From the NCBI RefSeq assembly GCF_004765815.2, contig NZ_SBIS02000007.1:124001-188000 (forward strand): 64,000 nt of DNA, given 5' to 3'. Made by a program: the position numbers and the translations under genes. The notes under the pieces were generated by a model, which was not told where the DNA came from, made no database searches, and saw only the letters and a program-made list of their open reading frames with translations. This document shows positions 6,567 through 11,381 of the stretch, one piece after another; position 1 is the first letter of the stretch, and each line of letters begins with the position of its first letter. Source of the DNA: Halorussus salinus (GTDB taxonomy: Archaea > Halobacteriota > Halobacteria > Halobacteriales > Haladaptataceae).

Positions 6567-7694
6567 TCAGAGGAGATTTCGATACCGCTCGCCCGCCTCG
6601 TCGTCGGCCGCGATAGCGTCCCGAATCGTCCCGGAGACCCACTCGTCGCGTCTCACGTCGCGGTCTTCGCCACCCGACGCCGCCGGAAGGTAGCGCCGAT
6701 ACACCGGCAGTCGCTCGCGGAGGGGCACCCCGGCCTCGTCGGCGATGTCCTCTAACTCCCGCAGGGCGGGCCACTCGTACTCGGGATTGATGTGGTCGTC
6801 GGTCACGGGCGAGACGCCGCCCAAGTCGTCCACGCCGCAGTCCAGCAACTCGCGGGTCGGCGAGAGGTTGGGCGGGACCTGCACCGACACCTCGTCGGGG
6901 AGACAGTCGCGGGCCATCGCCACGACCCGGCGCATCGTCTCGACGGAGGGTTGCTCGTACGACGACCGCTCGTTCGGGACGACGTTCTGGACGATGACCT
7001 CTTGGACGTGGCCGTACCGCTCGTGCAACTCCCGGATTGCCAGCAGGCTCTCGGCCCGGTCGCGCCACTCCTCGCCGATTCCCACGAGGAGGCCGGTGGT
7101 GAACGGCACGCCCAACTCGCCCGCATTGCGGATGGTGTTGAGGCGCTGGCCGGGGTTCTTCACGCGCGGCCCGGCGTGGGCGTCCACGTCGGCGGTAGTT
7201 TCGAGCATCACGCCCATCGAGGCGTTCGCGTCCGCGACCGTCGCCATCTGCTCGCGGGTCTGGTCGCCGGGGTTGCTGTGGGGGAGCAGGCCCTCGTCCA
7301 GCGCGATTTCACAGACCTCTCGGAGGTACTCGTGGATGGAGTCGTGGCCCCAGTCGGCGAGTTGGGCGTGAATCCGGTCGTAGCGGTCGTCGGGGTCGTC
7401 CCCGAAGGTGAACAGGGCCTCCGTACACCCGGCGTCCGCGCCAGTTTGAACGATGTCCCGGACCTCCTCGGGCGATAGCAGGGAGGCCTCGCCCGGCGGG
7501 TCGAAGTAGGTGCAGTAGGTGCAGGTGTACCGACACGCGGTCGTGAGCGGGACGAAGACGTTCTTCGCGAAGGTGAGTTCGTCCGCCGCGTCCACGTCGT
7601 CGGGGGTGACTTCGAGGAGTCGCGCGACCTCCTCGTCGGAGATGGAGAGGTCGATGTCGTACTCGTCTGCGCCCGGAATCTCGGCACCAGCCAT
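6567..7694 (-). CDS. cofG: FO synthase subunit 1, radical SAM (CofG)
   Basis: Partner of CofH in FO synthesis for coenzyme F420; CofG carries out the second radical SAM step that closes the deazaflavin ring. It has 375 residues. The cluster motif is C54-x3-C58-x2-C61 (CRYTCTYC), followed by SLLSPEEVRDI, the conserved HSNPGD and LETTADVD segments and NLSPTRELLDCGVDDLGGVSP near residue 270, all typical of CofG. It is convergent with the kinase operon (27 bp apart). Directly upstream (to its right) is the ATPase-TOPRIM cassette, which separates it from cofC. Confidence 0.95.
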   Translation of the reverse strand: MAGAEIPGADEYDIDLSISDEEVARLLEVTPDDVDAADELTFAKNVFVPLTTACRYTCTYCTYFDPPGEASLLSPEEVRDIVQTGADAGCTEALFTFGDDPDDRYDRIHAQLADWGHDSIHEYLREVCEIALDEGLLPHSNPGDQTREQMATVADANASMGVMLETTADVDAHAGPRVKNPGQRLNTIRNAGELGVPFTTGLLVGIGEEWRDRAESLLAIRELHERYGHVQEVIVQNVVPNERSSYEQPSVETMRRVVAMARDCLPDEVSVQVPPNLSPTRELLDCGVDDLGGVSPVTDDHINPEYEWPALRELEDIADEAGVPLRERLPVYRRYLPAASGGEDRDVRRDEWVSGTIRDAIAADDEAGERYRNLL

Positions 7695-7749
7695 CCTCGG
7701 GAACTACGCTACCGCGAGGAAAAGGGTTTGGAAGTTCCGTCAGCGCGGT

Positions 7750-8358
7750 TCAAAGAAGCGTTCGCCGGAGCAGTCTGTCGAACGACCCGCCGTCAAGCAA
7801 CGACGCCAGTTTCTGGGCCTGTGTTTCCGGGCCGTCTTCGTCCTTGTCGATGCCTGCGGCCGTTTCGAGGTCGTCGCGGAACGCGAGAATCGTGAAACCG
7901 GTTCGGGGGTCGTTACCACGTTCGTTTTCGAGCGTGACCTCCCGAGCAACCATCTCGCGGCACCGACCGAGACGTTCCGTCTCACCGATTCGAAGTCCCG
8001 CCCCTCGATGGCGCTGTCGGACGCGCTCTCGAATGTCGCTCACGAAGTCGCCGATTTCGGTCGTATCGAGGTCCACGAGAACGTACTTTTCGACCGGTTT
8101 CGTCGCCAAGTCGCGGATGACGACCGAGAATCCAGTCTTGAGGTTCGGTTTCCCGTTCTCAGACTTGACGAGGAGGTTGTGGTCGTTCCACCCACCCAAG
8201 AACGACCGTATCTTGTCGGACTCTTTGTGGGGAAGGTCGTCCCGCGAGACGTTTCCGATTACGAGGTCGTCAAGTCGTGGATTATCGTGATACTTATCGA
8301 AGAACTTACGCATGAAACGCACGTCGCGCTCACCCTCGCTGAAGACGATTTTCGACAT
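7750..8358 (-). CDS. Small TOPRIM-like protein paired with an ATPase
   Basis: A 202-residue protein not assigned to a named family here. The N-terminus SKIVFSEGERDVRFMRKFF matches the TOPRIM first strand and catalytic Glu (E8). VLVDLD at about 93-98 supplies the DxD pair (D96, D98) expected in that fold. A nuclease or nucleotidyl-transfer activity is therefore plausible but inferred. It starts 5 bases after the stop of the upstream ATPase gene, so both are surely one transcript. OLD, Gabija and PARIS-type antiviral systems combine an ABC/OLD ATPase with a TOPRIM nuclease, either fused or as two genes. The protein is shorter than a DUF4435 (AriB) partner. Confidence 0.7.
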   Translation of the reverse strand: MSKIVFSEGERDVRFMRKFFDKYHDNPRLDDLVIGNVSRDDLPHKESDKIRSFLGGWNDHNLLVKSENGKPNLKTGFSVVIRDLATKPVEKYVLVDLDTTEIGDFVSDIRERVRQRHRGAGLRIGETERLGRCREMVAREVTLENERGNDPRTGFTILAFRDDLETAAGIDKDEDGPETQAQKLASLLDGGSFDRLLRRTLL

Positions 8359-8363
8359 CGGCG

Positions 8364-9614
8364 CTAAATCCCTCGCAGATCTAAATGAAGGTCTTTGAGT
8401 TGGTGTTCGGCCTCCTCGTAGGTCGAAACGTCCGCGCCGAAGTCGTCCATCTTGACGAGCGAGAACTCGTCTTCGAGGTAGTCGCGCTTCTCCTCGGGCA
8501 TATCGGTGAAGAAGTCCCGGATGAAGTCGTGGTCGTGTGTAGTGATGAAAAATTGGATGTCTTCGTCGCGGGCGAGGTCGATGAGGAAGTGGACGAGTTC
8601 AGTGACGTAGCCGGGATGCATGTGAGTCTCCGGTTCCTCGATGAGGACGATTTCGTTCTCCACGTCGTCGTCCATGAGTTCCCAGAGAAGGCCGACGATA
8701 GACTTGAAACCGTCGCCCATGAAGTCGTACGGTACCTGCTCTTTCTCTCCATTTTCGTCTTCGAATATCAGGCTTTCGAGCGTGAACGTCTTGAGGTCGT
8801 CCACGATTCCTTTTTCTTTGACAAAATCGCCGATGTCGTCTATTTTAATCGGCTCTCGGTCGTCGCCTTTCCTTTCGATACCCTCTGCGAGGTTGATAGA
8901 CTCGATAAAAGTCACCGAACCGCGATTCTCAGGGGAGACCAGGTGTAGTTTTCCAGTTTCGAGTCCAAGTTCTACGTCTTCAGAACCGAAGTCAAGATAT
9001 CCAACAAGTGCTTCATTGCTGATTACGAGAATGGAGTCGAGTTCTTCTCGCTGGCCGAGATTTTTACGGACTTCTTCCCAAGCAGTCTTCAGTATGGCCT
9101 TGCTCTGGTCACCGCCGAGTAAATAAGGGAATTTGCTCCCAGAGATGGAAAGCACCAGTATCTCTTCTCGAAGTTCAGCGATAGATTCTTGAGTCAATTG
9201 CTTTTCTACGCTCCGCTGTACTATCTCGTCAATCTCGTCTTTAAGACCAGTTTCTTCGGCATCGTCGAACGGAGGACTGTTGAACTGTAAATTGTACTCT
9301 ACTTTTTCCAAAACCACCTCTGAGAAATACTTTCTCGCCTCAGACGGGGACGGATGTTCGAGACTGATTTCGATATCTGACGCTCTTGTTTCAGCACCGA
9401 GGTTACCTGTTTCGTACCTGTTATTGATTACATGGCCCAGATTGTCCCCAAAATCGGTTATTCTCTTGGGAGTAAATAGCAAATCCACAGCCTCCAAAAA
9501 CGAAGTCTTCCCCGTATTGTTCCGTCCAGTAATCAGATTGATGTCGGTAGGCTCGAATTCGACGTACTCCAACCCCTTGAACCCCTCAATCTCGACGTAT
9601 TCGAGTTCCGTCAT
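8364..9614 (-). CDS. OLD/AAA15-type ABC ATPase of a candidate defence pair
   Basis: A 416-residue SMC/RecF-like ATPase. N-terminal strand LEYVEIEGFKGLEYVEF; Walker A GRNNTGKTS at 30-38; signature-like MGDGFKS near 300; Walker B VLIEEPETHMHP near 325; H-loop FITTHDHDF near 355. The middle (about 90-280) is a variable helical insert. There is no C-terminal TOPRIM domain; that role seems to lie in the next gene, 5 bases downstream. The base composition is clearly more AT-rich than in the flanking F420 genes, with many A/T third positions, suggesting acquisition by transfer. Known relatives act in phage defence (OLD, PARIS AriA); a function here is inferred. Confidence 0.8.
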   Translation of the reverse strand: MTELEYVEIEGFKGLEYVEFEPTDINLITGRNNTGKTSFLEAVDLLFTPKRITDFGDNLGHVINNRYETGNLGAETRASDIEISLEHPSPSEARKYFSEVVLEKVEYNLQFNSPPFDDAEETGLKDEIDEIVQRSVEKQLTQESIAELREEILVLSISGSKFPYLLGGDQSKAILKTAWEEVRKNLGQREELDSILVISNEALVGYLDFGSEDVELGLETGKLHLVSPENRGSVTFIESINLAEGIERKGDDREPIKIDDIGDFVKEKGIVDDLKTFTLESLIFEDENGEKEQVPYDFMGDGFKSIVGLLWELMDDDVENEIVLIEEPETHMHPGYVTELVHFLIDLARDEDIQFFITTHDHDFIRDFFTDMPEEKRDYLEDEFSLVKMDDFGADVSTYEEAEHQLKDLHLDLRGI

Positions 9615-9646
9615 CGGTAGTCGCTCGCCCGAAGGTTGGCCGTCAT

Positions 9647-9656
9647 GATATAAAAA
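9647..9656 (-). promoter_or_regulatory. TATA box of the ATPase-TOPRIM cassette
   Basis: Read on the minus strand this is TTTTTATATC, centred about 37 bases before the ATPase ATG at 9614. Transcription would start near 9625, leaving a leader of roughly ten bases. It faces the + strand promoter at 9733 across a 150-bp divergent gap. Confidence 0.5.
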
Positions 9657-9732
9657 CGATAGCCTTCAGATGTGCCGAACTGATTTTTCACTGTCTTCGT
9701 AAAGTCGCATTTTGTCTGAACAAGTAAACCGG

Positions 9733-9741
9733 CCTTTTATG
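9733..9741 (+). promoter_or_regulatory. TATA box before a micro-ORF
   Basis: CCTTTTATG lies about 27 bases before the ATG at 9765, the spacing of a leaderless haloarchaeal gene. This spacing is the main support for the 25-codon ORF. Confidence 0.45.
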
Positions 9742-9764
9742 AACCGCATCCTTCGATACAAGTA

Positions 9765-9842
9765 ATGTCACCTCCCGACGGTCTCGAATCGAAGTTCCGG
9801 ACTCTCCGGCCCGAAGCGTCCGCCGAGGAGAACCCGCCGTGA
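9765..9842 (+). CDS. Possible 25-residue leaderless micro-protein
   Basis: The ORF starts MSPPDGLESKFRTLRPEA and ends after ENPP, 25 residues. It is too short for homology by eye. It is reported because a well-placed TATA box lies 27 bases upstream, the ATG would be at the transcript start, and it sits just before a TrmB-like regulator gene (49 bp to that ATG). It could be a real small protein, a leader peptide of the regulator transcript, or chance. Confidence 0.3.
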   Translation: MSPPDGLESKFRTLRPEASAEENPP

Positions 9843-9891: not shown

Positions 9892-10683
9892 ATGGCCCGA
9901 GAGATAGACGACCTGCCCGGCAAACGGGCCGCCGAGACGTTGCAGGAACTCGGTCTGACCGAGTACCAGTCGCGGTGCTTCGTCGCGCTCGTTCGCGTCC
10001 CGAGCGCGACGGCCAAGGACGTGAGTCGCATCGCCGACGTACCGTACACCCGCGTCTACAACACGGTCGAGGACCTACAGGCGAAGGGGTTGGTGGAGGC
10101 CCAAGAGACCGACCCCCGCGAGTTCCGGGCGATTCCCGTGGACGACGCCGTCCGGGCGCTCCGCGAGGAGTACGAGTCGCGGCTCGAAACTGCCGAGAAG
10201 ACCCTGACCGCGCTCGAAACCACGGGCGACACCCGCCACTCGGGGTCGTGGGAGATATCCGACCACGAGCAGGTCACGCGCCGCGCGACCGAAATCGTCG
10301 CCGAGGCCGACGACGAGGTCATCCTCGTCGGGACTGACGAGCGCCTGTTCGAGACGCAGGTCCTGCGGCGACTCGACGGCGCGGCCGACGACGCCTCGGT
10401 CGTGGTCGGCGTGCCGGGGCGAGACGCCCACGAGCAGGTCGAGGAGCGCGTACCCAAGGCCGACATCATCGAGTGGGACACCATCCCGGACAACGACTGG
10501 TCGCTCGGGCGCATCCTGATGGTGGACCGCTCGACGGTCCTGCTGAGTTCGCTCCGCGGGACCGACCTGCCGGGCGTCCCCAACGAGTCGGCGGTCTGGG
10601 CGCGGGGGTTGGACCACGGCCTCGTGATGGGAGTCAGCGACCTCCTCGTGACGCTGATGAATGCACGCGGTATCTACGAGTAG
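9892..10683 (+). CDS. TrmB-family transcriptional regulator
   Basis: A DNA-binding regulator of 263 residues. The N-terminal winged helix-turn-helix (about 15-80) reads LQELGLTEYQSRCFVALV then SATAKDVSRIADVPYTRVYN, the classic TrmB recognition region. A short coiled segment (residues 85-110) follows, then an effector domain with EADDEVILVGTDERLF that resembles the phospholipase D-like C-terminal domain of TrmB-like proteins. The effector is unknown; it lacks the long sugar-binding domain of sugar-specific TrmB. It ends 8 bp from the convergent cofC. Regulation of the neighbouring cassette or of F420 genes is possible but only inferred from position. Confidence 0.85.
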   Translation: MAREIDDLPGKRAAETLQELGLTEYQSRCFVALVRVPSATAKDVSRIADVPYTRVYNTVEDLQAKGLVEAQETDPREFRAIPVDDAVRALREEYESRLETAEKTLTALETTGDTRHSGSWEISDHEQVTRRATEIVAEADDEVILVGTDERLFETQVLRRLDGAADDASVVVGVPGRDAHEQVEERVPKADIIEWDTIPDNDWSLGRILMVDRSTVLLSSLRGTDLPGVPNESAVWARGLDHGLVMGVSDLLVTLMNARGIYE

Positions 10684-10691
10684 TCGGACGA

Positions 10692-11381
10692 TTACCGCCG
10701 GGCGGACTCGTCGGCGCGCTCGACGGTCGTCCGGCCCTCGTCGGCCGCGAGGTCGAACCCGGCGCGCCGGAGCCACGACCGGGCGCGACTCGTCCGGCGA
10801 GGGTCCGTTTCGGCGTTGTCCCGCTCCGACTCGGTGTTTCCGGGCGCGCTGCCGCCGTGAATCAGTATCTCGGCCAAGTCCGCGCGCTCGTCCACGTCGG
10901 TCGCCAGCCGATGAGAGTCCACCACCGTCGGGTCCGCGCCGACCGCCCGTGCGGCCCGACGGTGGTCCAGATACGAGGAGCCGTGATAGTCCACCCGGAA
11001 GTCGTCGTCGCGCGCCACCAGCGCGTTCGTCCCGCCGCCCCGGCCCGGCGCGAGAACGACCGCGCCCTCGGCGTCGAAGAGTCGGGCGAGCGCGTCGGGG
11101 GTCGCCAGCGCGAGGTCGGCCATCACGACCGCGACCGGGCCGTCGGTCTCGGCGAGGACGGCGTTGACCGCCTCGGTGAGCGGTCGCCGGTCCACGGTCA
11201 CGGACGCGTCGGTCTCGACCGGTTCGGTGGCCAGCAGTTCCGGGTCGCGGCCGGTCGCGCGAATCGCCGCGAGGAGATCGGCCAGCATCTCGTCGGCGAA
11301 CGCCGACCGCTCGGCGGGCGACAGCGCGTCGGCTAACCGGGTCTTCGGCTCCGCGGCGGCGTACGGGACGACGACTCGCAT
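10692..11381 (-). CDS. cofC: 2-phospho-L-lactate guanylyltransferase (CofC)
   Basis: Activates 2-phospholactate (or phosphoenolpyruvate) with GTP to give the guanylylated precursor used by CofD in F420 synthesis. It has 229 residues. The nucleotidyltransferase start [20 protein letters not shown] with [14 protein letters not shown] is typical of CofC, followed by VVMADLAL, the [11 protein letters not shown] loop and the SYLDHRRAA segment. The C-terminal 40 residues (from about 190) are Arg/Asp-rich and probably not part of the core. A TTAAG element about 30 bases upstream may be its promoter. It belongs functionally with cofG and cofH in this window. Confidence 0.93.

Follow-up and report, generated by a model that had tools for sequence, protein, structure and literature searches.

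The window, that is, the whole 64,000-nucleotide stretch of the Halorussus salinus genome (4.75 Mb; G000) analysed here, carries between cofC and cofG a two-gene cassette encoding an ABC ATPase and a small protein with TOPRIM features (Table 1). The open reading frames confirmed the first-pass annotation, which had described an OLD/AAA15-type ATPase with Walker A, Walker B and H-loop motifs followed, after 5 bases (8359-8363), by a 202-residue protein. The pair had also been called AT-rich, and its GC content is indeed lower than that of cofG (68%), but unevenly so, with 46% in the ATPase middle and 58% in the TOPRIM gene. Likewise, the pair does separate cofG from cofC as claimed, but a TrmB-type regulator, which had gone unmentioned, also lies between the pair and cofC. 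None of the other pair-bearing genomes showed this regulator at the site, and it is therefore probably no part of the system. Of the TrmB gene, an empty cofC-cofG junction in a related species (G009) retains only the 3' end, which, together with its lack elsewhere, points to the cofC-cofG spot itself as a place of gene turnover. The promoter-like leader of the pair (ACCGTTTTTATA, window 9640-9667) resembles the element preceding cofG in empty junctions (AACCGTTTTCC), a likeness that concerns window positions 9640-9667 and 7710-7730 and the junctions in L049, L050 and L092, and that may reflect microhomology or promoter duplication at insertion.

Table 1. Features of the cofC-cofG site in the Halorussus salinus window.
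Feature	Coordinates	Strand	Remark
cofG, fixed neighbour of the site, downstream of the pair	6567..7694	-	
Putative TOPRIM effector gene, 202 aa, type T1, exchangeable module	7750..8358	-	T2 in three other Halorussus
OLD/AAA_15-type ABC ATPase gene, 416 aa, C-terminal ...LDLRGI	8364..9614	-	
ATPase core (signature-like FMGDGFK, Walker B, H-loop) and C-terminal tail to DLRGI	8364..8849	-	
Middle of the ATPase (residues ~49-254), exchangeable and AT-rich; presumed to sense the trigger	8850..9468	-	
Conserved ATPase start, residues 1-48 including Walker A	9469..9614	-	81-89% DNA identity, leader included, to 6 other Halorussus pairs
Conserved 5' leader with TATA-like GTTTTTATATC	9615..9667	-	Probable own promoter of the pair
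TrmB-type regulator, between the pair and cofC	9892..10683	+	
cofC, fixed neighbour of the site, upstream of the pair	10692..11381	-	

The ATPase carries the motifs GRNNTGKTS (Walker A), VLIEEPETHMHP (Walker B) and TTHDHDF (H-loop), and it matched the AAA_15 profile with 94.1 bits (cut-off 32.1; E 1.9e-26) and AAA_21 with 93.3 bits (cut-off 27). Walker A, signature, Walker B and H-loop are near-invariant across 25 ATPase homologues, and by its profile matches the window protein is a member of the OLD/AAA_15 ABC ATPase superfamily. The PADLOC models that it matched are AriA, AbiLi, PDC-M38A, GajA and Old. Furthermore, the residues DLRG stand at the C-terminal end in all 25 aligned ATPases and likewise in the readable distant homologues, and we infer that this invariant tail may dock the TOPRIM nuclease. 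An AF2 model of the ATPase, built from few sequences, was poor (pLDDT 45).

The small protein itself had no Pfam or NCBIfam match. Nevertheless, several lines of evidence support its assignment as a TOPRIM protein. Nine residues (E8, G9, D12, K65, G69, D96, D98, F160 and E165) are invariant in 20 homologues, among them E8 and D96-x-D98, which had been singled out as TOPRIM landmarks, and the three TOPRIM motifs are found in order, with E in the first (E8), G in the second (G69) and DxD in the third (D96/D98). Weak Pfam matches were obtained among the 20 members to DUF3226 (5/20), OLD-like_TOPRIM (4/20) and DUF4435 (1/20). Additionally, hhalign placed the E, G and DxD of the small-protein profile in register with OLD-TOPRIM and DUF3226 profiles built from freshly collected sequences, scoring 35.5 and 36.7, respectively; the highest scores among 100 column shuffles were 16.6 and 20.5, so that none did as well. 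The AF2 model, made from 5 sequences, is of low confidence (pLDDT 55.8); its element order (strand-helix-(helix)-strand-helix-strand-helix-strand) is compatible with TOPRIM, and in it E8 follows strand 1 and D96/D98 end strand 3. Foldseek with this low-confidence model returned noise only, and a PDB profile search found no TOPRIM relative. On motifs and profile alignments, the TOPRIM identity proposed in the first-pass annotation is well supported; its argument from size is weak, as TOPRIM partners of similar length are known (208 positions in the DUF3226 model, 250 in PADLOC PDC-M38B).

A separate OLD-type ABC ATPase and a TOPRIM protein in a two-gene cassette, with a proposed sensor/effector logic, recall PARIS, in which AriA, the ATPase, keeps AriB, the TOPRIM nuclease, inactive and in which AriB cuts tRNA once a phage protein has bound (PMC12409363, PMC11455837); in PARIS, moreover, removal of the ATPase gene alone is tolerated (PMC9122126). 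The published PARIS detection rule asks for an AAA_15/AAA_21 ATPase gene, which the window pair has, and for a partner with DUF4435 (PF14491; score threshold 27), for which the window protein gave no match at E<=1; by that rule the window pair is not PARIS (PMC9122126). It is very unlikely that we are dealing with a canonical PARIS (AriAB) locus that has diverged in sequence only, because the window protein lacks DUF4435 and only 1/20 homologues matched it (E 0.016), even though gene order and ATPase family are the same and the best PADLOC matches are named AriA. We rejected that name as evidence for PARIS, since the PADLOC AriA models mirror the generic Pfam AAA_15/AAA_21 in length and span. 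Canonical PARIS is further characterised by an AriA hexamer on which three AriB copies dock, and by anti-restriction proteins as its trigger.

The closest catalogued system is PADLOC PDC-M38, a candidate that is likewise a two-gene unit (the ATPase PDC-M38A and PDC-M38B). All 25 ATPases matched PDC-M38A (best 4.3e-29; window 4.7e-25), whose models cover the C-terminal tail as far as residue 414, and 9/20 TOPRIM homologues matched PDC-M38B (best 4.8e-7); the window TOPRIM scored only E 0.06 against it. We found no paper naming PDC-M38 and, in the literature that we compared, no description of fixed-site module exchange for it. AbiL (AbiLi/AbiLii) and MADS (MAD3/MAD4) also combine an ABC ATPase with a separate partner, and the window ATPase matched the AbiLi model (E 4.8e-26); the mad4 model matched the window at E 0.0035 and the best homologue at 0.00065. 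However, the pair's family differs from AbiL/RloAB in that no RloB-like partner (PF13707, AbiLii) was among the listed Pfam or PADLOC matches (E<=1) of the 20 members, and from MADS in that no other MADS gene stands beside the window pair, its immediate neighbours being cofG, TrmB and cofC. OLD and Gabija GajA share the ATPase superfamily and, by hhalign, the TOPRIM motifs with the window pair, but there both parts are fused in one protein whereas the window has split genes; nor does a GajB-type helicase, the partner of the fused GajA in Gabija, lie beside them.

As judged from its homologues, the two-gene family is present in haloarchaea and in some other archaea of the phylum. In the true homologues with readable flank the ATPase lies directly upstream of the TOPRIM gene, the two being a few bases apart, abutting or slightly overlapping, and this recurrent order argues that the pairing is not due to chance. 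Remote homologues in other families of the phylum, L163 left aside, are arranged in the same way; one of them, L162, lacks a readable Walker A. Among non-haloarchaeal members (L157-L162) the pair consists of a DLRG-tailed ATPase and a small TOPRIM protein. The TOPRIM profile search gave matches in 18 of 391 Halobacteria genomes (about 5%) and in 10 of the 247 sampled from the phylum, an occurrence that marks the TOPRIM protein as accessory; a genome-contig scan using a closer alignment found only 4 loci. No homologue of the pair was found in viral, phage or plasmid contig collections, so that mobility can be read from chromosomes only. Other genera carry the pair at other sites; the flanks thus shift between genera as had been anticipated, but are fixed within Halorussus. 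The expected proximity to defence genes applies to some copies only, with a few such genes nearby (a type I methylase, HerA and a HamB-like helicase), while other copies lie mostly among ordinary metabolic genes. One haloarchaeal genus (G165, G209) carries the pair at least 4 times in each genome (L076-L078, L080-L082, L087 and L090); the copies occupy separate sites, with counterparts in both of the species compared, and in the G209 copy L090 the ATPase stretch reads with internal stops. On another contig of the window genome, two OLD-like TOPRIM matches lie 3 kb apart (G000:C7:65488-65688 and 68345-68563; L146, L150).

Within Halorussus, the pair was found in 7/18 species (G000, G001, G002, G005, G010, G014 and G015), always between cofC and cofG, and a short empty cofC-cofG junction in 9/18 (G003, G004, G007, G008, G009, G012, G013, G016 and G017). 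In the remaining two, cofC and cofG are 20 kb apart (G006) or on different contigs (G011). In a second genus of the family, one species (G019) has the pair at the same cofC-cofG site. On the cofG tree, pair presence needs 7 changes, and 337 of 500 label shuffles were as low; presence thus shows no clustering beyond that of shuffled labels. The pair does not belong to the core genome, and the possibility that it might be a fixed core locus in all close relatives can be dismissed. Furthermore, in G009, a close relative of the window genome, 130 bp from upstream of the pair (window 9684-9813, 75%, E 1.7e-17) survive, fused to the tail of the TrmB gene, a junction that is most simply the scar of a deletion by which the cassette was lost. 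The whole cassette appears to be often lost at this site.

These observations bear on the idea that ATPase and TOPRIM protein act together in DNA repair, as a housekeeping pair comparable to RecF-RecR. RecR, too, has the TOPRIM domain, and the Walker A region of the ATPase gave a weak RecF match (TIGR00611, 8.3e-9, far under the 172-bit cut-off). Presence in about 5% of sampled Halobacteria (18/391) and in 7/18 Halorussus, and deletion in G009, are not housekeeping behaviour, however, and the hypervariable middle and swapped effector described below are equally unlike it, so we regard a repair role as highly improbable.

Comparison of the pairs at the site, sampled in eight genomes, revealed a mosaic. 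Between Halorussus genomes, ATPase residues 1-50 and ~270-375 form well conserved protein blocks, and protein identity of the middle between types is roughly 20-40%. The TOPRIM protein comes in two types, T1 (G000, G002, G014 and G015; 78-88%) and T2 (G001, G005 and G010; 61-71%), which are 30-34% alike. At the DNA level, the window is 83-84% homologous to the T1 genomes from cofG through TOPRIM into the ATPase core; homology ends at 8846-8885, restarts at 9469-9475 and goes on through the 5' leader. Against the T2 genomes, homology runs through cofG to the cofG start codon and is absent over TOPRIM; a second homologous stretch extends from the ATPase stop codon (8366; 8321 in G005) up to 8849-8912, and after another loss over the ATPase middle homology returns at 9469-9486. 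Over most of its length, the window's middle (8850..9468) has no significant DNA similarity to G014, G015, G002, G001, G010 or G005. Additionally, G015 (T1) aligns with the T2 genomes G001 and G010 without a break from cofC as far as the ATPase stop, and the alignment is then broken over TOPRIM. The breakpoints fall at nearly identical places in six comparisons, the flanking DNA remaining 74-89% identical.

The phylogenies of the two variable parts disagree. The middle tree groups G015, G002, G001 and G010 (100/100) and the TOPRIM tree groups G001, G010 and G005 (100/100). In AU tests each data set rejected the other's grouping (p 0.014 and 0.023) and the cofG data rejected T2 as a single clade (p 0.0009), all of these p values being indicative, because the groups were named after the trees had been seen, and the cofG reference being a single gene beside the locus that may itself recombine. 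The same type of middle was found combined with either TOPRIM type, and several middles share a single type of TOPRIM. The ATPase tail covaries with TOPRIM type, with 84-94% identity within T1, 90-96% within T2 and 49-63% between them. At fourfold sites, divergence of the conserved start (few sites) and of the T1 TOPRIM is broadly like that of cofG, and that of the middle between types (few sites) is much higher than cofG's. Furthermore, at corresponding sites in the unrelated genus (G165, G209) a hypervariable middle again lies between conserved ends. The window's variable middle had no homologue outside the cofC-cofG locus among the 391 Halobacteria genomes. We had considered the low GC3 of the middle as proof of import, and downgraded it to suggestive only since its contrast ranks 4th of 45 window genes, 3 of the 45 ORFs showing larger ones. 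The sharp breakpoints and the conflicting trees indicate that the ATPase middle (residues ~49-250) and the whole TOPRIM gene are replaced separately; the ATPase start with its promoter and the Walker B core are conserved.

It might be argued that the middle evolves fast in place and that the TOPRIM types are old alleles, with no exchange of modules. A faint similarity of the middle persists between most genomes (~30% identity, G000 to G015 and G010), and composition alone, as seen from the GC3 ranking, is not decisive. This view, however, leaves unexplained the conflict between middle and TOPRIM trees, with one middle type joined to two TOPRIM types in splits of 100/100, and it has to contend with breakpoints that nearly coincide in all six comparisons amid well conserved flanks; we consider it quite improbable. 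A toxin-antitoxin or addiction module without antiviral role, with the ATPase as antitoxin holding a TOPRIM toxin, would be in line with the two-gene architecture, the abutting genes and their own promoter, and a commentary describes PARIS itself as TA-like (PMC11455837). Yet what varies most is the ATPase middle and not the contact of ATPase and TOPRIM protein, as expected for recognition of an outside partner, and frequent loss speaks against strong addiction, which makes such a module unlikely.

The reading that we prefer, and think likely, is that the pair is a PARIS-like sensor-effector antiviral (abortive-infection) module, which diversifies through the exchange of its parts while its site is fixed. 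Such an immune module is in keeping with an engine that is conserved, an inserted domain that varies, a putative docking tail and a nuclease that can be swapped. The gene pair with its TOPRIM motifs, the patchy occurrence, the module borders and their reassortment, and the scar of loss are seen directly in the sequences; we infer the antiviral function, substrate, trigger and all of the biochemistry, and by analogy the middle would be the trigger sensor and TOPRIM the effector. In this scheme, the ABC ATPase would assemble via the Walker A, signature and Walker B of its conserved head and keep the small TOPRIM nuclease inactive, docked through the C-terminal DLRG tail. A virus product would bind the variable domain in the middle, which is inserted after Walker A and before the signature, and the resulting change of ATPase state would free or activate TOPRIM, which could then cut nucleic acid by E8/D12/D96/D98 metal chemistry, the target being either host tRNA, if the enzyme resembles AriB in this, or DNA, if it resembles OLD. 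Cleavage would stop infection, probably through cell arrest. Recombination would exchange the middle (trigger specificity) and TOPRIM (effector) separately, and the conserved parts would stay. The best reading of the sequence is a putative split ATPase/TOPRIM antiviral system, and the earlier interpretation is partly supported; modular exchange did not figure in it.

OLD-ABC/TOPRIM operons have been described as a class, which is thus already known (PMC12839542), and in the limited literature that we compared we found no description of fixed-site exchange of two modules, which appears to be new. The DLRG-tailed ATPase with a small TOPRIM protein provides a family signature for wider searches. 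Exchange of target domains is known from type I restriction HsdS, where a recognition module recombines in a conserved frame at one locus; in contrast, the window pair has no methylase or restriction subunits, and its effector is exchanged too. Split ATPase-TOPRIM systems are known in bacteria, and to our knowledge the virus-sensing part of the ATPase is known for very few of them; we also know of little testing of archaeal defences other than CRISPR. In this regard, the recombination cut sites mark a candidate sensor (residues ~49-250) and a candidate effector-docking tail, a testable map, and the natural chimeras, in which one middle is joined to T1 or to T2 and T1 to different middles, amount to domain swaps that archaea have already carried out. 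Modular exchange is the strongest evidence for an arms race. On balance we lean slightly towards a combinatorial archaeal immune locus, in which, at one fixed site, sensor middles and TOPRIM effectors are interchangeable and enter a conserved ATPase frame independently of each other; if so, one promoter would drive, from species to species of a genus, different combinations of sensor and effector.
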